Assembly: GCA_022825235.1 (NCBI GenBank)
Contig: JAJDYI010000046.1
Coordinates: forward strand, 1-64,000
Direction: 5' to 3'
Source: Alphaproteobacteria bacterium
GTDB taxonomy: Bacteria; Pseudomonadota; Alphaproteobacteria; TMED109
DNA: 64,000 bases
Below the pieces are notes generated by a model. That model was given only the letters and a program-made list of their open reading frames with translations, did no database searches and was not told the DNA's origin. The translations under genes were made by a program, and so were the position numbers. Shown here piece by piece: positions 37,524-50,330 of this stretch (positions within the stretch are counted from its first letter, which is position 1; each line of letters begins with the position of its first letter).

Positions 37524-38483
37524 ATGCAGCCACCAGGTAAGGCACACCGCGACGGCATTAGCATCATGCAGCTTACCGCCATGTTCCCTACGGAAGAAGC
37601 GGCGGAAACATGGTTTGAGGAGGTGCGGTGGGGTGCTACAAGTCGCCACTGCGCCAAATGCGGTTCCACCAATACCTACGAGGTAAAGCGCCGCAAACCG
37701 CAGCCCTACCGTTGCCGTAGCTGCAAGAGCTATTTCAGCGTGCGCACGGGCAGTGCGCTGGCCGAGACTAATTTGCCACTACGCACCTGGCTACATGCCA
37801 TCTACCTTTACATCACCAGCCTTAAATCTGTTAGCAGCATGAAACTGCACCGGGACCTGGGTATTACGCAGAAGACGGCGTGGTTTCTGTTGCACCGTTT
37901 GCGCACCGCATGGGACGGGGATCCGGCGGACTTGTTTACTGGACCTGTTGAAGTTGACGAAACGTATATGGGTGGGAAGGCCCGCAACAAGTCCAACCAC
38001 CAGCGCCGACAGGCAAAGGCAACGGGTAATGAGGTGGCACCCAAGACAGCCGTTGTGGGTGCAAAGGACCGCTGCATACGCAAGGTGGCCGCCCGGGTGG
38101 TGGCCGCGCCCAATATGGCCGAGTTGCTGGGTTTAGTGACGAAAACGGTTGGTGCAGACGCAGTAGTGTATACGGATGAGGCCAAGGCCTACCAGGGCCT
38201 GCCGCGCAGCCACGGCACGGTAAAGCATGGTGCAGGGGAATACGTGCGCGGCGATGTGCACACCAACGGTGTCGAGTCGTTTTGGAGCATGCTAAAGCGT
38301 GCCCACATGGGCACCTTCCACCACTTGTCCCCCAAGCACCTGCACCGTTACGTGGCGGAGTTCGCGGGACGGCACAACGTGCGCAACCAGGACACCATCA
38401 AGCAGATGCAGGCAGTGGTTGCTGGTACGCTGGGTAAACGGCTCATGTATGCGGAACTAGTGGCAAAGCGCCTCAAGCTATGA
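37524..38483 (+). CDS. IS1595-family transposase
   Basis: The 319-residue protein has an N-terminal zinc ribbon with C43/C46 and C64/C67 (CAKC, CRSC), a helical DNA-binding part, and an ISXO2-like DDE domain: D in VEVDETYMGGK (about 144), D in VVYTDEAKAYQGL and the last acidic/Asn motif in HTNGVESFWSMLKRAH. All expected catalytic blocks are present, so the element may still be active. It lies within the inverted repeats at 37456 and 39490. Its 3' end overlaps the convergent passenger gene by six bases. Confidence 0.95.
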   Translation: MQPPGKAHRDGISIMQLTAMFPTEEAAETWFEEVRWGATSRHCAKCGSTNTYEVKRRKPQPYRCRSCKSYFSVRTGSALAETNLPLRTWLHAIYLYITSLKSVSSMKLHRDLGITQKTAWFLLHRLRTAWDGDPADLFTGPVEVDETYMGGKARNKSNHQRRQAKATGNEVAPKTAVVGAKDRCIRKVAARVVAAPNMAELLGLVTKTVGADAVVYTDEAKAYQGLPRSHGTVKHGAGEYVRGDVHTNGVESFWSMLKRAHMGTFHHLSPKHLHRYVAEFAGRHNVRNQDTIKQMQAVVAGTLGKRLMYAELVAKRLKL

Positions 38484-42868: not shown

Positions 42869-43225
42869 TCACCCCAACAGCCGCAGGACTGTCTCCCTGT
42901 CGACCAGGTCGACGTCCTCTGCGCGTTCGAGCAATGGCCGCACGTCGCCCGCGACGAGATTCCAGTCCAGCCGCACCAGCCGCTCGGCAACCGCGCTGCG
43001 CCAGCTCACGGGCGTCATCTCCGTACCCGACCAGCCGGTCTGGCGCAGCGCCGCGTTCAGGAATGCGAGGTTTGGCGCCGGCCAGTCGGGGTCGCTGAGG
43101 TACCACACGAGGTCGTAGATGTCCCGACCCTTCGTGTACGGCCGTTGAAGCACCGCATGCAGCTTGCCGGCCAGCAGCGATGCACGGTCATGGTGGAAAA
43201 GCCGCAACGTCTCGTGCCGGCGCAC
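42869..43225 (-). pseudogene. AbiEii-type nucleotidyltransferase remnant (C-terminal part)
   Basis: The frame reads [20 protein letters not shown] followed by PYTKGRDIYDLVWYLSDPDW and LNAALRQTGW, the conserved C-terminal half of AbiEii/AbiGii toxin-family nucleotidyltransferases. The N-terminal catalytic part is missing because sequence upstream belongs to dinB. It continues on the same strand from the broken dinB and ends at 42869. Confidence 0.75.
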
Positions 43226-43829
43226 GAGCGTCGTGTCCGTTCACGGCGAAGCCGCGCGGCTTGTCCAGATCCGAGGCGATCTTGGCCAGGAACTTGTTGG
43301 TGCTGAGCCCGATCGAGAGCGTGATGGCAAGCTCGGTTTCCACCCGGCGCGCCAGCGCCGCCAGCGTGGCGGCGGGGCTGGCGCAGTGGAGGGATTCCGT
43401 GCCCGAGAGGTCCATGAAGGCCTCGTCGATCGAGAGCGGTTCCACCAGCGGCGTGAGTTCCAGCATCATCGCCCGAACCTCGCGGCCGACGGCGGTGTAC
43501 TTCTTCATGTCGGGCCTGACGACAACGGCCTCGGGACAGGCCTCCAGAGCCTTGAACATCGGCATGGCCGAGTGCACGCCGCTGGCGCGCGCCAGGTAGC
43601 AGCAGGCCGCGACCACCCCCCGGTGGTGCCCGCCCACGATGACGGGCCGATCGCGCAGCTCCGGGCGGTCGCGCTTCTCGACGGCGGCGTAGAACGCGTC
43701 GCAGTCGAGATGGGCGATGGCGAGACCGTGGAGTTCCCGGTGTCGGACGACCCGTGACGAGCCGCAGGCCGGACAGGCCTTGAGGACGGCGTCCGGCCGG
43801 CTGCCGCAGTCACGACACAGGGCTTCCAC
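43226..43829 (-). pseudogene. dinB: Truncated DNA polymerase IV (dinB), N-terminal part
   Basis: The product starts with a zinc ribbon (CRDCGS and CPACGS), the extension typical of alphaproteobacterial DinB, followed by the Y-family palm: [50 protein letters not shown] and [14 protein letters not shown] with the catalytic DE. It is intact to SNKF-like [20 protein letters not shown], then the sequence breaks at about 43240. The thumb and little-finger domains are absent, and an AbiEii fragment begins instead. It cannot be a full polymerase; normal length is about 350-420 residues. Confidence 0.88.
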
Positions 43830-43941
43830 GGACCGAGAATAGAACAGGCTTCAGATCGTGTGCAGTCGTCCGTCAGCCTGTCATTCCGAACCCGTTCGCC
43901 CGGCGACAAGAGCAGCGAGCCCGCTGGAAGCACGGCCCGCG

Positions 43942-43990
43942 GTCACATCTTGGGACGCAGCCTGGCCTCAAGCTCGAGGCATCCCTCCCC
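43942..43990. repeat. Left copy of the DUF2285-like gene end (direct repeat)
   Basis: GGTCACATCTTGGGACGC and AGCTCGAGGCA match GGTCACATCTTGGGTCGC and AGCTCAAGGCA at 49848-49892. On the minus strand both encode CLEL..R.RPKM and a stop. The left copy needs a frameshift to extend the match. The pair brackets the 44.3-49.7 kb operon in direct orientation. Confidence 0.55.
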
Positions 43991-44318
43991 CATGCAAGAA
44001 CATCACAATCTCGCGCACAACCTTCTGTTCAGCAGGAGCATCGGTGGGAATCTGACCCCCGACGGTAAGCGGGCCCCTCACGACGCGCGGGACTGACCCT
44101 TCCGTCCGCCGGGGCTGTGCTCGCCGGTCGACCCGGCTACGGCCCCACTGTTTCGGCCGAAGCCCGTCACCTGCTGGTGCACTTTCCATCGGGGGCCCCT
44201 CCATGCGGCAAGGCCGCGCCATGGAGTGGCTCGCATTACCGCGATCATCGAAATTCCTCAAGCCGCCAAGCTCCGCACATCTATTGAGTAATGTTACTCA
44301 ATATATTAGAATACCTCT
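43991..44318. other. Intergenic before the ATPase/nuclease operon
   Basis: Degenerate continuation of the DUF2285-like repeat, then a GC-rich stretch, then an AT-rich block (44276-44316, TTGAGTAATGTTACTCAATA is a perfect palindrome-like run) directly before the operon, a likely promoter/operator. Confidence 0.4.
44281..44304. promoter_or_regulatory. Inverted repeat upstream of the ATPase/nuclease operon
   Basis: ATTGAGTAATGTTACTCAAT, a 20-base near-perfect inverted repeat (TTGAGTAA/TTACTCAA around TG), lies about 15-35 bases before the ATG at 44319. Its position suggests an operator for a repressor or a symmetric activator site; no regulator gene adjoins. Confidence 0.55.
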
Positions 44319-45596
44319 ATGACAACCTACGAACGGGCCCAGATTTCCACGCTATTCAACCGGCTGCGCGAGAAGCCTCAGCGGCTCGCGATCGTGACCG
44401 GTCCGCGTCAAACGGGCAAGACCACACTGGTTCACCAGGTCCTCGGAAAGCTGGACTGTCCTTCTCGGTACGTGTCTGTCGATGAACCGGACCCTGCCAT
44501 CCTCCCTTCAGTTCCAGACTTGGGTAGTTCTCAGCCTGGATTCGCGGAGCATCAATTGTCCCCGCGCGACGGCTCAAGAGACGCGCGATGGCTGGTCATG
44601 CAGTGGGAACAGGCTCGGTTGGCCGCCGAAAGCTCCGACCGGGGTCTCGTCCTGGCGATCGACGAAATTCAGAAAATCCCGAACTGGTCGGAGGCGGTCA
44701 AGGGGCTGTGGGACGCCGACCGGCGAAGTGATCGGCGCCTGCACGTCATCCTGCTTGGCTCGGCCCCATTGCTCATGCAGCAGGGACTGAGCGAGAGCCT
44801 TGCCGGCAGGTACGAGACCGTCCGCCTGATGCACTGGTCGTTCGCCGAGATGTCGGCAGCGTTCGGTTTCGATCTCCAGCGCTACGTCTATTTCGGGGGT
44901 TATCCGGGCGGCGCCCCGCTCGTTCCCGAGCAGAGTCGATGGCGTGCCTATATCGCCGAGGCGTTGGTCGAGCCCAATATCGAGCGGGACATTCTCGCGA
45001 TGCAGCGGGTCGACAAACCAGCGCTGCTGAAGCGGCTGTTTCAGCTCGGCGCTGAGTATTCCGGGCAGATCCTCTCCTACAACAAGATGCTCGGCCAGCT
45101 TCAGGACGCCGGCAACACGACGACCCTGGCGCGGTACATCGACCTCCTGTCGAACGCAGGTCTCGTCACCGGCCTCCCCAAGTACGCCGCAGGAGCCCAT
45201 CGCCGGCGATCCTCCAGCCCCAAGCTCAACGTTCTCAACACCGCACTCATGGCCGTTGCGTCGGGATACACCTTTGAGGAGGCAAAGGCCGACCGCAGCT
45301 ATTGGGGGCGCCTTGTCGAAAGTGCGGTGGGCGCGCACTTGTTCAACACGGGCACGCCGGAACACCGTCTGCACTACTGGCGCGAGAACGGCTCCGAAGT
45401 GGATTTCGTCCTGACACGCGGTCGCAGACTGGTTGCCTTCGAGGTGAAGACCGGCGCGCGCAAGCCCAGGACAAGCGGGCTCGAACGATTTGCGGAGCGC
45501 TTCGATGTGCAGGCGTCCGTCATCGTCGGCGAGGGAGGCCTCCCCCTCTCCGAATTTCTGTCGACACCGGCGCTGGAGTGGTTCGACAACCCGTGA
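44319..45596 (+). CDS. AAA-family ATPase with DUF4143 C-terminal domain
   Basis: The 425-residue protein has Walker A TGPRQTGKTT (27-36), Walker B LVLAIDEIQKI (110-120) and the sensor-like VILLGSAPLLMQQ, typical of AAA_14/DUF4143 proteins. The C-terminal domain contains EVDFVLTRG and VAFEVKTG, giving a D...ExK arrangement like a restriction-endonuclease fold, usual for this family. Its stop overlaps the GTG of the next gene by four bases, so the two are coupled. The family is widespread, often beside mobile or defence genes, with unclear function; a joint role with the next protein is inferred. Confidence 0.93.
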   Translation: MTTYERAQISTLFNRLREKPQRLAIVTGPRQTGKTTLVHQVLGKLDCPSRYVSVDEPDPAILPSVPDLGSSQPGFAEHQLSPRDGSRDARWLVMQWEQARLAAESSDRGLVLAIDEIQKIPNWSEAVKGLWDADRRSDRRLHVILLGSAPLLMQQGLSESLAGRYETVRLMHWSFAEMSAAFGFDLQRYVYFGGYPGGAPLVPEQSRWRAYIAEALVEPNIERDILAMQRVDKPALLKRLFQLGAEYSGQILSYNKMLGQLQDAGNTTTLARYIDLLSNAGLVTGLPKYAAGAHRRRSSSPKLNVLNTALMAVASGYTFEEAKADRSYWGRLVESAVGAHLFNTGTPEHRLHYWRENGSEVDFVLTRGRRLVAFEVKTGARKPRTSGLERFAERFDVQASVIVGEGGLPLSEFLSTPALEWFDNP

Positions 45597-48500
45597 CGCC
45601 CACCGTTCGACGGACATGCCGCGACATCGGCGAGCCCGCCTCCCGTGGCCCTTCGGAATCTCCGTCCCGACCTGTCGAGCATTGGAACGACGAGGCAGCC
45701 TACGTGCTGCTTGGTCCTCCAGGCTCCGGCAAGACCACCATTTTCAAGCATCTGGCGGAACGCGAGGGCGGACAGTACGTCACCGCGCGCGATTTCCTGA
45801 CCTTCGACGACAGACCCGAGCGGCACGATACGGCTCTCTTTATCGATGGGCTCGACGAGACACGGGCCGGAGCAACCGACGGGCGCACACCGTTGGACAG
45901 TATCCGTGCCAGGCTCGACCGAATGGGCCGTCCGCGCTTTCGCCTGTCGTGTCGTGAGGCCGATTGGTTCGGAGCGAATGACAGGGATCATCTCAAACAG
46001 GTATCGCCCAGCAGAGCCGTCAAGGTACTCCGCCTCGATCCCTTGTTCGAACAAGATATCCACCAATTTCTGCGCGGTGTTCTGAGGATCGATGATCCGG
46101 AGGCTTTTGTCGCAGCGGCCCGAGAGAAGGGCATTCACGGATTACTGGTCAATCCACAGAGCCTGAACATGCTCGCGGTTGCGGTCGGAGCCGCCGGTGT
46201 CTGGCCCGAGACCAGAACGCAGGCATTCGACATGGCATGCCGGACCCTGCTTGCAGAGCACAACGAAGAACATCGTATAGCCGGTCCGGATCCGGGCGGA
46301 AGCGCCGATCTCATCGAGGCCAGCGGAAGGCTCTGCGCAGTGCAGCTTCTGACCGGTGCCGCGGGGTACGCACTGCCGGGCGCGGAGGGCGATCAGCATT
46401 TCCTCGGACTGGAGCGACTACCGGGAACGGAGCGCGAGATTCTTCGCCGCAGCCTTCAATCCAAGCTGTTCGAATCTCCCGCAGAGCGCCGGATGGCTCC
46501 CGTTCACCGGCAGGTCGCGGAGTTTCTCGCCGCGAGATATCTGGCCGCTCTTGTCGAGAACGGGCTGCCGGTCGGGCGCATCCTCGCACTGATCACCGGC
46601 TACGACGGCATGGTGGTCTCCGAACTGCGCGGCCTTTCCGCATGGCTCGCCGCACACAGCAAATCCAGCCGAGCGGAGGTGATCCCGCGCGATCCTCTTG
46701 GCATCGTTCTTTACGGAGACGCCCAACACTTCTCGCCGGAAGAAAAACGCCTGCTTCTGGATGGCCTCCAACGGCAAACTGCAGCGAATCCCCGCTTGAT
46801 CACCACCGTCCAGCTGGATTCGCGGCTCGGCGATCTCGTGTCCGTCGACATGGAGAACCAGGTCCGCGAGATCCTGGCCGCCCCGGCGCGGGAGGACTCC
46901 TGGCAATCCTTCGTCGTGATCGTGCTCGAGGCCCTTCAGCACAGCGAACCGCTTCCAAGGCTTGCCGATCCGTTGAAAGAGCTGATCCGCGATGGTGCGC
47001 GGTGGCCGAGGATTCGGGATCGCGCCATCGATGTGTTCCTGTGGCACCATCCGAATGACACCGAGGCCCTCGCCGAACTCAAAGAGCTGACTGCTGAGGT
47101 CTATGCCGGCAGGGTGGCTGATTCCGACGACGCCCTGCTCGGCCGCCTGCTGTCCACGATTTACCCTGCAGCGATATCGGAAACGGAGGTCATACGATAT
47201 CTCAGGCTCCCGCAACGACCCAACTACAGCCCCGAATACGAGTATTTCTGGACCGGACAGCTTCCCAAGCGATCGACACCAAGCCAGCTTGCCGTGCTCC
47301 TCGACCTGATCGTCGAACGCTACGACAACTTGCTTGCGGATGAACGGGCGCGCGGACTTCCGGCTTTCTTCTTGCGTCGCCTGCCCTCGAATCTGTTGGC
47401 CCGGTTTCTTCTGGTGTCGGGCGACGAGGTGGACGTGACCCGCTTGTTCCATTGGCTGGAGCCAGCCGCCAGGGCAGGCGACTGGACCTACGACCGTGAT
47501 CTCGGCAGCGAGGAATCACAAGAGATTCGCAGGTGGCTTGCAAGCCGCCCCGCCGCGTGGAAGACCCTGCTGGCGATGGGGATGGAGCGTTGCGCCGAGC
47601 GGCCCAATTCCCCGGAACCCTACGAGTTCTACAGCTGCATGCGCGAAGAAGAGCATGGCAGGCTGTTGGGTGTCGCTCGGCCCCGGGATTTCGGACTGTG
47701 GTGCCTCGACCGGGCGGTCGCCGCCAAGAGCCGGATCACCGCCGACTGGCTCATCGGCGAAGTTGCGGAAAGCCTGCACTACGGCCGTTCCGATGAGGGC
47801 CTTTCCCGCGAGGCTGTCTCGAGACACCTGGTCGGCTTCACCCGTCTCAGTGATGCGTTTGACAGGAGAATGGTCGAGCTTGAGGCCCGAACGTCCGACA
47901 GGGACAGCTCCAGTCCCCGCGCGCAGGCTCGGTTGCAGACCGAGCGACCGGACTGGCGCGACCATGTAAAGCCGCACGAGGACGAACTGCGCGGAAATAC
48001 GGGAAGGCCCCAGCTTCTGCACGAGCTCGCCACGGTGTATTTCGGCGGATACATCAACGTTCGCGGCAAATCACCGAGAGACAGGCTGAACGCTCTCCTG
48101 GCCGGCGACGAAGGCCTAGTCGACGCCGTTCTGTCCGGATTTCGCAAGACCATCGACCGGGATGATCTGCCTTCGGACACGAGGGTCATACGCCTCGGAA
48201 CCGCGAATCGGACGCACTATCTCGCCCTGCCTTTCATGGCGGGCCTGGAGGAAATGGCGAAAGCTGCGCCATCCGGCGAGATCGACATAGATCACGGACG
48301 CTTGCGGCTTGCACTGGCGGTTCATTACACCGTGCCGATGTGGCCCACTGCGCGGCATCCGGCCGACCGTCCGCCGCCCTGGTTTGCCTGGACGCTAGCC
48401 AACCGCCCCGAGGTCGCCGCCGATGTGCTCGTAAGGTCCGTTCTCTCGAAACTGCGCAAGGGCGCGCAATCTCCTGCGGGCATCCAGGAATTGGCGCATT

Positions 48501-49732
48501 CTCCGGACCATACCGAAGTTGCCCGCCTGGCCACGATGCCTTTGCTCAGGCAATTCCCCGTGCGTTGTGCATCCGGGCAGTTGTCGAGCCTGAACCACCT
48601 GCTGTTGGCCGCCAGGCGCCACTGCGACATTGGCCCGCTTCTGGAGTTGATCGAGGAGAGGCACGCCGATCATCGAATGAGCGTGGCACAGCGCGTCCAC
48701 TGGCTGGTCGCCGGCTTGTGCATCGCGCCAGAGTCGTACGTCGATCGGCTGGAATCGTATGCCGCTGGCAATGAACGCCGCATTCGTTTCCTGGCGGAAG
48801 CGGTGACCCGACAATTCGGCATTTCCCCCGATCTGAAGTACCGCCGGAGCGCGCCTGCGCTTCGGCTTCTGATCCGACTCATCGGCGCCTCATGCCGGCC
48901 CTATTTTCTTGACACGGACTCGGATGAAGGCGGCAAGGTGACCCCGGAAATGAACGCTGCCGGTTGGGTTCGAGACTGCATCGAACAACTGGCGAGCATT
49001 ACGACGGAAGGCGCTTCGCTCGCCCTTGAGGCGTTGTCGTCCGACAACGACTTGCGTCCCTGGCGTTCCCTTCTCATGGACGCCGCGTACCGGCAGGAAG
49101 CGGCCCGTCGCGAAGCCGAATTCGCCTATGGTGACGTCGCTCGGGTTCTTGCAACCCTCGCTGGCGGCGCTCCTTCGAACGTGGCCGACCTCGCGGCGTT
49201 GACCCTGGAAAACCTGAACGAGATTGCGCGTGCCATTCGCGACGGCAATACGTCCGACTGGAAGCAATACTGGAATGTGGATCATCGCGGCCGCCCACAG
49301 AGGCCCCGCCCGGAAGACACGTGCCGAGACGCGCTGCTGTCGGATCTGCGGAACAGGCTGATGCGCCTCGGTATCGACGTTCAGCCGGAAGGGCGTTACG
49401 CCAACGACAAGCGGGCGGACATTCGTGTTTCCTGTGAGGGTTTCAATGTTCCCGTGGAGATCAAGAGAAGCTGCCACCGCGATCTCTGGAGTGCAGTACG
49501 ATCGCAGTTGATTGCCCGCTACATCGTCGATCCGGGAACCGACGGGCATGGCATCTATCTTGTGTTGTGGTTCGGAGACACGAAAGAATGCCGACCCACG
49601 CCACCGGCGAAGGGATCACCGGTCGCTACTTCCCGTGAACTGGAACATCGCTTGTCGTCGACCTTGTCTGCCGAGGAGAGAAGAAAAATCAAGATTCGAG
49701 TCATCGACGTCTCCGATCCGAATGCAACTTGA
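45593..49732 (+). CDS. Large NACHT/STAND-like P-loop ATPase with C-terminal PD-(D/E)XK nuclease motif
   Basis: The 1379-residue protein begins at GTG 45593 (overlapping GTGA). Walker A is LLGPPGSGKTT (39-49), Walker B ALFIDGLDE (81-89) and the sensor segment RFRLSCREADW (115-125), as in NACHT-like ATPases. The long middle (about 250-1200) is helical and repeat-like, without membrane segments, as expected for a sensor arm. The C-terminus has KRADIRVSC (D1276) and VPVEIKRS (E1289, K1291), a PD-(D/E)XK signature, followed by QLIARYI and GIYLVLWFG. A phage-sensing nuclease is inferred. Unlike many such proteins, the nuclease is at the C-terminus. An alternative upstream start would lie inside the ATPase gene. 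Confidence 0.9.
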   Translation: MTPTVRRTCRDIGEPASRGPSESPSRPVEHWNDEAAYVLLGPPGSGKTTIFKHLAEREGGQYVTARDFLTFDDRPERHDTALFIDGLDETRAGATDGRTPLDSIRARLDRMGRPRFRLSCREADWFGANDRDHLKQVSPSRAVKVLRLDPLFEQDIHQFLRGVLRIDDPEAFVAAAREKGIHGLLVNPQSLNMLAVAVGAAGVWPETRTQAFDMACRTLLAEHNEEHRIAGPDPGGSADLIEASGRLCAVQLLTGAAGYALPGAEGDQHFLGLERLPGTEREILRRSLQSKLFESPAERRMAPVHRQVAEFLAARYLAALVENGLPVGRILALITGYDGMVVSELRGLSAWLAAHSKSSRAEVIPRDPLGIVLYGDAQHFSPEEKRLLLDGLQRQTAANPRLITTVQLDSRLGDLVSVDMENQVREILAAPAREDSWQSFVVIVLEALQHSEPLPRLADPLKELIRDGARWPRIRDRAIDVFLWHHPNDTEALAELKELTAEVYAGRVADSDDALLGRLLSTIYPAAISETEVIRYLRLPQRPNYSPEYEYFWTGQLPKRSTPSQLAVLLDLIVERYDNLLADERARGLPAFFLRRLPSNLLARFLLVSGDEVDVTRLFHWLEPAARAGDWTYDRDLGSEESQEIRRWLASRPAAWKTLLAMGMERCAERPNSPEPYEFYSCMREEEHGRLLGVARPRDFGLWCLDRAVAAKSRITADWLIGEVAESLHYGRSDEGLSREAVSRHLVGFTRLSDAFDRRMVELEARTSDRDSSSPRAQARLQTERPDWRDHVKPHEDELRGNTGRPQLLHELATVYFGGYINVRGKSPRDRLNALLAGDEGLVDAVLSGFRKTIDRDDLPSDTRVIRLGTANRTHYLALPFMAGLEEMAKAAPSGEIDIDHGRLRLALAVHYTVPMWPTARHPADRPPPWFAWTLANRPEVAADVLVRSVLSKLRKGAQSPAGIQELAHSPDHTEVARLATMPLLRQFPVRCASGQLSSLNHLLLAARRHCDIGPLLELIEERHADHRMSVAQRVHWLVAGLCIAPESYVDRLESYAAGNERRIRFLAEAVTRQFGISPDLKYRRSAPALRLLIRLIGASCRPYFLDTDSDEGGKVTPEMNAAGWVRDCIEQLASITTEGASLALEALSSDNDLRPWRSLLMDAAYRQEAARREAEFAYGDVARVLATLAGGAPSNVADLAALTLENLNEIARAIRDGNTSDWKQYWNVDHRGRPQRPRPEDTCRDALLSDLRNRLMRLGIDVQPEGRYANDKRADIRVSCEGFNVPVEIKRSCHRDLWSAVRSQLIARYIVDPGTDGHGIYLVLWFGDTKECRPTPPAKGSPVATSRELEHRLSSTLSAEERRKIKIRVIDVSDPNAT

Positions 49733-49847
49733 AATACGGCCTCAGTGCACTAGCCAAGAGTCTTCTCTCAAGTAACAAACCTTCTAATGACGGTGGCGAT
49801 CAGTACACAGAGCCGTCACCGACCGGCACGGCGCGATCCCGACCCAC
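49733..49847. other. Short intergenic after the operon
   Basis: No terminator hairpin was recognised before the DUF2285-like remnant on the opposite strand. Confidence 0.3.
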
Positions 49848-50230
49848 GGTCACATCTTGGGTCGCCGCCCGGCCGCGAGCTCAAGGCACCCGCCCCGCAT
49901 CAGGAACCGCGCCTTCTCCACCAGCCGTCGGACCTGCGCGCGCAACGCACTGTCGTTGTCGAACCCATCGCCGGCCACCGCGTCCTCGCCGTGGACCGCC
50001 GCCGCGATCTGGCGCTGCGACTTCCGAGCCGCCAGTCCCTCCACGGCAATCATCAGCTCCCTGTCACCCGACCCCCGCCCCGGCGAGGGACGTTCCCCGG
50101 TCGCAATTGCGCAAGCCTCCTCCAGCCGGCGGACGAACGCCTTCGGGTCCGCCCGCAGGTCGTGCCGCACCACCACGCCGTCCTCCGGTTCGAACCCGCA
50201 GCCGACCGCCAGCCTGAACTGCCCCTCCGC
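49848..50230 (-). pseudogene. DUF2285-like protein fragment (right copy of the repeat)
   Basis: The frame reads GQFRLAVGCGFEPEDGVVVR then DLRADPKAFVRRLEEACAI, SQRQIAAAVHGEDAVAG, LRAQVRRLVEKARFLMRGG and ends CLELAAGRRPKM. This is the tail of a DUF2285 family protein, DNA-binding regulators common in alphaproteobacterial mobile islands. No complete start is seen, so only the C-terminal part survives. Its last codons match the left repeat at 43942. Confidence 0.6.
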
Positions 50231-50330
50231 ACCTGCGCATCATGGGCGCGGCTCGCCGCAACACGACCGACCGGCGGTGCACACTCGCCCGCCATCCGCC
50301 CCCGGCCCTCGCGCGAGGTTTGACGACGCC

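Follow-up and report, generated by a model that had tools for sequence, protein, structure and literature searches.

Do the two overlapping genes at 44319-49732 in the 64,000-nucleotide stretch analysed here (positions 1 to 64,000 of contig JAJDYI010000046.1, assembly GCA_022825235.1, from an alphaproteobacterium of the TMED109 lineage; hereafter the window) form a defence unit, and of which kind? An earlier note, made from the sequence alone, had taken them for a candidate defence operon and knew of no described system with such a pair. The two genes are a real unit and their pairing is new, but both partners belong to families already on record: gene 2 is an EruA homologue and gene 1 a PDC-S01 defence candidate. 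We consider it probable that they constitute a horizontally moving antiphage module of two genes, in which an EruA-type sensor-effector is accompanied by a dedicated PDC-S01 partner. The module would represent a two-gene variant of the known antiphage system EruA, with a mechanism that we infer below.

44319-45596, plus strand: gene 1, ATG start, 425 amino acids; AAA_14 plus DUF4143 ATPase of the PDC-S01 family
44493-44573, plus strand: codons of the pairing-specific insertion in gene 1 (residues ~59-85), placed by alignment
45593-49732, plus strand: gene 2, GTG start, 1379 amino acids; EruA-family protein
45593-45596, plus strand: GTGA start-stop overlap of genes 1 and 2, read from the sequence
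45713-45736, plus strand: Walker A codons of gene 2 (GPPGSGKT, residues 41-48)
49307-49729, plus strand: likely C-terminal nuclease domain of gene 2 (residues 1239-1379), placed by invariant residues and predicted secondary-structure order

The two genes and their families

Judged by its profile match to NCBIfam NF058535 (antiphage EruA; E=1.5e-286, residues 25-1374 on model positions 15-1318 of 1318), gene 2 is a full-length homologue of EruA, a curated NACHT domain-containing antiphage protein. The likeness extends from the P-loop to the likely C-terminal nuclease, with the same size and motifs; the window copy differs by its coupling to a DUF4143 ATPase, which is absent from most EruA homologues sampled. 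The predicted layout is an N-terminal P-loop NTPase of the NACHT type, within the signal transduction ATPases with numerous domains (STAND), then a long helical arm and a PD-(D/E)XK nuclease. Pfam gave only weak generic P-loop matches for gene 2, and a sequence search of the PDB with both proteins only generic AAA matches. The Walker A and Walker B motifs read earlier (GPPGSGKT, 41-48; LFIDGLDE, 82-89) are present as described. In an alignment of 33 homologues (~22-83% identity) the Walker A, Walker B and arginine-motif segments are conserved, and the nuclease residues are conserved without exception. The STAND/NACHT features found comprise Walker A, an hhhhDxxDE Walker B, the arginine motif and an NP..L..(G)xWPxTR segment (19-33 homologues). 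The overlap of the two genes by GTGA was confirmed in the sequence. In favour of the GTG start of gene 2, an ATG occupies this position in the homologues L005, L006 and L007, where it likewise overlaps TGA. A 1476-amino-acid open reading frame with a TTG start was rejected as spurious.

The C-terminus of gene 2 is likely a PD-(D/E)XK nuclease. D1276, E1289 and K1291 are present as the earlier note had it, and together with E1241, E1266 and Q1305 they are invariant in 35 of 35 aligned C-terminal domains. In an AlphaFold model of residues 1080-1379 the motif lies within an alpha-beta-beta-beta-alpha-beta order. A Pfam scan of the 35 C-terminal domains returned no nuclease family, and a PDB sequence search with the C-terminal domain returned nothing. 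Orphan EruA C-terminal fragments occur in two unrelated genomes (L008:5977-6866 and L097:7965-8891, starting at residues 1089 and 1083); they may reflect decay or a free-standing domain.

Gene 2 resembles the Avs (AVAST) STAND proteins in combining a STAND NTPase with a likely nuclease and a long repeat arm, and is presumably activated in a similar, ATP-driven way. The domain order differs, as had been noticed before: the P-loop stands at residue 41 without an N-terminal effector, and the nuclease comes last, the reverse of Avs. No Avs profile matched gene 2 among the PADLOC results. HyoA (NCBIfam NF058534, ~1430 amino acids) is a separate family and a distant relative; the match is strongest in the C-terminal third (E=1.5e-42), and its score falls far under the HyoA cut-off of 1200. 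Neither EruA nor HyoA is mentioned in DefensePredictor (PMC13092281). A putative "EruB" beside EruA in the NCBIfam accession list was discarded, NF058536 being an unrelated acyltransferase. Escherichia coli genomes searched with the DNA of an EruA relative gave no match, nor did viral contigs searched with P0001 alone; the family alignment found three distant matches in viral contigs.

Gene 1 is an AAA/DUF4143 ATPase, as had been proposed (Pfam AAA_14, E=1e-23; DUF4143, E=1.4e-29), and matches the PADLOC model PDLC04791 of PDC-S01 at E=4e-166. With an AAA ATPase fused to a DUF4143 PD-(D/E)XK domain it fits the definition of PDC-S01 and is a clear member of that family. The alignment places Walker A at G28-T36, Walker B at D115-E116 and a PD-(D/E)XK signature at D362...E375-V-K377, a nuclease signature of its own that was absent from the earlier note. 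The predicted model of the protein shows AAA+ structural matches to ORC, RuvB and RFC. PDC-S01 has been described as a single-gene candidate, an ATPase fused to a PD-(D/E)XK domain, that ranks fourth in frequency among prokaryotic defences; experimental validation is pending for most such candidates (PMC12988326). The "single-gene" description does not fit here: gene 1 or a homologue is joined to EruA at nine loci and to hsdR at two more.

Pairing with EruA and with hsdR

The genomes compared are a partial sample, in which several loci are contigs of metagenome-assembled genomes (MAGs). EruA-type genes at E<=1e-30 occur in 13 of 385 genomes of the class and in 33 of 398 of the phylum, counts that take in weaker, HyoA-like matches. 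Of 35 near-full-length EruA loci, seven are immediately preceded by a gene-1 homologue and two immediately followed by another DUF4143 gene; the remaining 26 lack a DUF4143 neighbour. The nine paired loci (window, L005, L006, L007, L064, L065, L041, L128 and L134) consist of these seven, L041, which is cut by a contig end, and L134/L138, found later. The overlap of the genes amounts to 4 nucleotides in the window, L005, L006, L007, L064 and L065; in L128 they abut, with a gap of 0.

The paired EruA proteins belong to a fully supported clade of the EruA tree, which includes one unpaired member, L062, and the nine paired gene-1 proteins likewise form one clade (SH-aLRT, the approximate likelihood ratio test, 98), in a quick tree without bootstrap. 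Pairwise identities of gene 1 and of EruA correlate with r=0.98 across eight loci. On our reading, the two genes were acquired together once and were then inherited and transferred jointly for a long time, the partner being lost a single time; this explains these observations. The condition that the earlier note had named as refuting its reading, that homologues of the large protein usually lack the DUF4143 partner, is true of EruA family-wide (26 of 35 loci sampled) but untrue of this subclade, whose members show a close and ancient pairing that an insertion in gene 1 marks.

This insertion consists of 20-27 extra residues past the second AAA-domain strand, present in nine of nine EruA-paired gene-1 proteins and in none of the unpaired PDC-S01 relatives aligned. 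It predicted the pairing correctly in all six new loci fetched afterwards: only L134 carries it, with EruA directly after, and the five loci without it are not followed by EruA. Residues 59-84 of gene 1 are predicted to be disordered (pLDDT, the model's per-residue confidence, < 50), and the insertion may be a partner-binding loop.

Coupling of EruA with a DUF4143 gene is not confined to this arrangement. In G149 the distance from EruA to the start of the AAA_14/DUF4143 gene behind it is 11 nucleotides, and no other DUF4143 gene was found in that genome. The corresponding distance is 2 nucleotides on a Paracoccus plasmid, where the P-loop of the DUF4143 protein is degraded. Both downstream proteins are closest to another PDC-S01 subfamily, PDLC04790. 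The comparison indicates at least two separate origins of EruA-DUF4143 coupling, and so speaks against a chance association. The Paracoccus protein (L095:9906-11129) has lost the Walker A lysine and kept D...ExK. EruA exists in a two-gene form, and its coupling, tight and repeatedly evolved, links PDC-S01 to a curated antiphage protein resembling the nucleotide-binding leucine-rich repeat (NLR) proteins. Solo EruA genes were also observed on plasmids and in defence neighbourhoods, with Shedu/ABC-three-component in Agrobacterium (L092), with Ppl/Abi in Pantoea (L094) and beside SIR2 on a Bradyrhizobium plasmid (L090).

Gene 1 is found with a further partner. Its unpaired relatives L130 (2694-4187) and L132 (2-1492, minus strand) have an ATGA overlap with the type I restriction gene hsdR, and in G790 a gene-1 relative lies downstream of hsdM-like and hsdS-like genes, directly before hsdR; hsdR was called by profile, hsdM and hsdS from position and an NPPF/Y motif only. 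It is possible that gene 1 is a portable unit serving different nucleases. We put forward tentatively, as a possibility and hardly more, that PDC-S01 proteins of the PDLC04791 branch act as portable control-and-effector units, each an AAA+/nuclease protein which brings its own operator-promoter, precedes varied defence nucleases (EruA, type I hsdR), represses the operon until infection and then joins the response, with insertions tuned to the partner. If true, this would give a function to one of the commonest unexplained defence candidates. The ATGA overlap with hsdR is recorded under L136 and L137 as well as under L130 and L132. In L137 what looks like a degenerate copy of the hsdR start stands ahead of the ATPase gene, which would suit an insertion of the ATPase in front of hsdR.

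Putative operator, promoter-like site and cassette

The sequence in front of gene 1 and the extent of the conserved DNA are summarised by the following features.

44279-49713, plus strand: transferred cassette, 86% DNA similarity to two unrelated contexts (blastn against L005/L053 and L006)
44282-44303, plus strand: putative palindromic operator TATTGAGTAA-TG-TTACTCAATA, from half-site recurrence before gene-1 homologues
44284-44312, plus strand: promoter-like TTGAGT-17 nucleotides-TAGAAT, with the -35 inside the palindrome
43933-43993, no strand assigned: left DUF2285-like 3'-end remnant of ~17 codons, outside the cassette
49840-49900, no strand assigned: right DUF2285-like gene end, the 3' end of a PF10074 gene, outside the cassette

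The promoter-like element is the only sigma-70-like match in 44000-50300, and its spacing is the same in L005 and L006. The predicted transcription start lies at or beside the ATG at 44319, which suggests a short leader or none. The palindrome TTGAGTAANNTTACTCAA has a single match in the 3.85-Mb genome with up to two mismatches allowed. With at most one mismatch, its half-sites (TTGAGTAA/TTACTCAA) were counted 42 times before gene-1 homologues, against ~1.8 expected (24 loci, paired and unpaired), and twice before solo EruA genes, against 1.6 expected (28 genes). By this recurrence the palindrome is probably a promoter/operator that belongs to gene-1 proteins as a family, and its conservation reaches from Pseudomonadota to Bacteroidota. 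Since it tracks gene 1 across phyla and hosts, the gene-1 protein would be the simplest reader of the site. Gene 1 likely autoregulates through it, as the palindrome overlaps the -35 and is shared with unpaired gene-1 homologues but not with solo EruA. The inverted repeat that the earlier note had placed before the operon is thus real but is no insertion boundary. Tandem TTGAGTAA half-sites with a 22-nucleotide period, included in the count of 42, precede the DUF4143 gene upstream of 5004 in L116 (Bacteroides) and upstream of 2685 (minus strand) in the alphaproteobacterial L109.

The similarity of 86% to the two closest homologous loci, L005 (a Rhodospirillaceae MAG) and L006 (an Albidovulum MAG), sets in at 44279-44280 and stops at 49713, and by blastn the surrounding DNA is unrelated. 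The operator and both genes, and nothing else, move together, which bears out the earlier suggestion that the operon was inserted as a unit.

Proposed function and its alternatives

In the mechanism that we propose, the long helical arm of EruA probably recognises a phage product, whereupon an ATP-driven assembly of EruA would bring the C-terminal PD-(D/E)XK domains together, and the assembled protein would cut DNA of the phage, the host or both and so stop the infection. These steps follow the NCBIfam family annotation and general knowledge of STAND proteins. Gene 1 most likely binds the palindrome over the promoter and thereby controls how much of a dangerous nuclease is made. It most likely also acts with EruA through the pairing-specific insertion, whether to activate it, to hold it back or to serve as a second nuclease. 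We assign both roles on the strength of the operator, the intact motifs and the insertion. Antiphage activity of the window copy, the molecule sensed, the DNA target, the autoregulation and the physical contact of the two proteins are all parts of this reconstruction. The pairing, the insertion and the conserved operator offer testable hints for PDC-S01 as to which partner, which DNA site and which residues matter.

Several points weigh against this two-gene antiphage module. We know of no phage test or other experiment on the pair of EruA and gene 1. Binding of DNA by gene 1 is argued from comparative evidence only, and L062, a member of the subclade, persists without gene 1. Gene 2 scores 954 bits, below the NF058535 equivalog cut-off of 1000, and is therefore called an EruA homologue and not an EruA equivalog; the cut-off is exceeded by two members of the same subclade, the paired L128 (1032) and the solo L062 (1146). 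A Foldseek search with the C-terminal model (pLDDT 67) found no structural match, and an hhalign comparison with the DUF4143 nuclease part set the D...ExK residues in register (E=3e-4) at a probability of 40%. The nuclease reading is for these reasons likely but unproven by structure: the fold proposed in the earlier note has the invariant motifs and the predicted secondary-structure order in its favour, but lacks a structural match.

The two might instead be independent defence genes travelling together, EruA acting alone and gene 1 being a free-standing PDC-S01 protein with its own promoter. We regard this as rather unlikely. Most EruA homologues indeed lack a DUF4143 neighbour, most PDLC04791 homologues lack EruA, and the partner was lost in L062; however, the 4-base overlap is retained down to 35% EruA identity, the paired gene-1 proteins are one clade with an exclusive insertion, both proteins diverged in parallel (r=0.98), and a second, independent DUF4143-EruA coupling exists. 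Gene 1 as a purely transcriptional governor, which represses the shared promoter via the palindrome and has no immune role, with EruA and hsdR as exchangeable passengers, would account for an operator that belongs to the gene-1 family and for the overlap with hsdR in place of EruA in two unpaired relatives. The complete Walker and D-ExK motifs of gene 1 exceed the needs of a repressor, and its insertion marks the pairing with EruA specifically, so that we find this explanation unlikely. Gene order, overlap and likely autoregulation also recall, from general knowledge, toxin-antitoxin operons, in which case gene 1 would restrain a toxic EruA nuclease until phage interference with gene 1 releases it; as solo EruA is widespread and needs no antitoxin, and gene 1 is itself a nuclease-type protein, such an arrangement appears very improbable.

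That the palindrome and the DUF2285 repeats are the ends of a transposable element carrying both genes is scarcely credible and already largely refuted. The cassette does stand in three unrelated contexts with sharp edges, and 43933-43993 and 49840-49900 are a direct repeat of 61 nucleotides, 80% identical, on both sides of it. The repeats said to bracket the operon are thus real, but their copies lie ~285 nucleotides before and ~125 nucleotides after the conserved cassette, and as element ends they were rejected, both being outside 44279-49713. The palindrome was likewise rejected as an insertion end, since unpaired gene-1 homologues are preceded by it too, and a second copy is missing both from the right end and from the rest of the genome; terminal inverted repeats at both cassette edges were accordingly not found. 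There is no transposase inside the cassette, and no recombinase was found among the genes and Pfam matches between 44279 and 49732.

The right-hand repeat copy belongs to a PF10074 gene (RovC_DNA-bd, formerly DUF2285) at 49850-50176 on the minus strand (Pfam, E=3.8e-12). Close by on the left of the cassette, 42869-43225 and 43188-43829, both on the minus strand, hold a truncated AbiEii nucleotidyltransferase (C-terminal part) beside an IMS-domain (DinB-like) polymerase fragment, and an intact-looking IS1595-family transposase (37524-38483, plus strand) lies ~6 kb to the left. Elsewhere in the genome of the window (G000, contig C75:16112-37021), several DUF4143 genes, some of them broken, are clustered within 21 kb.

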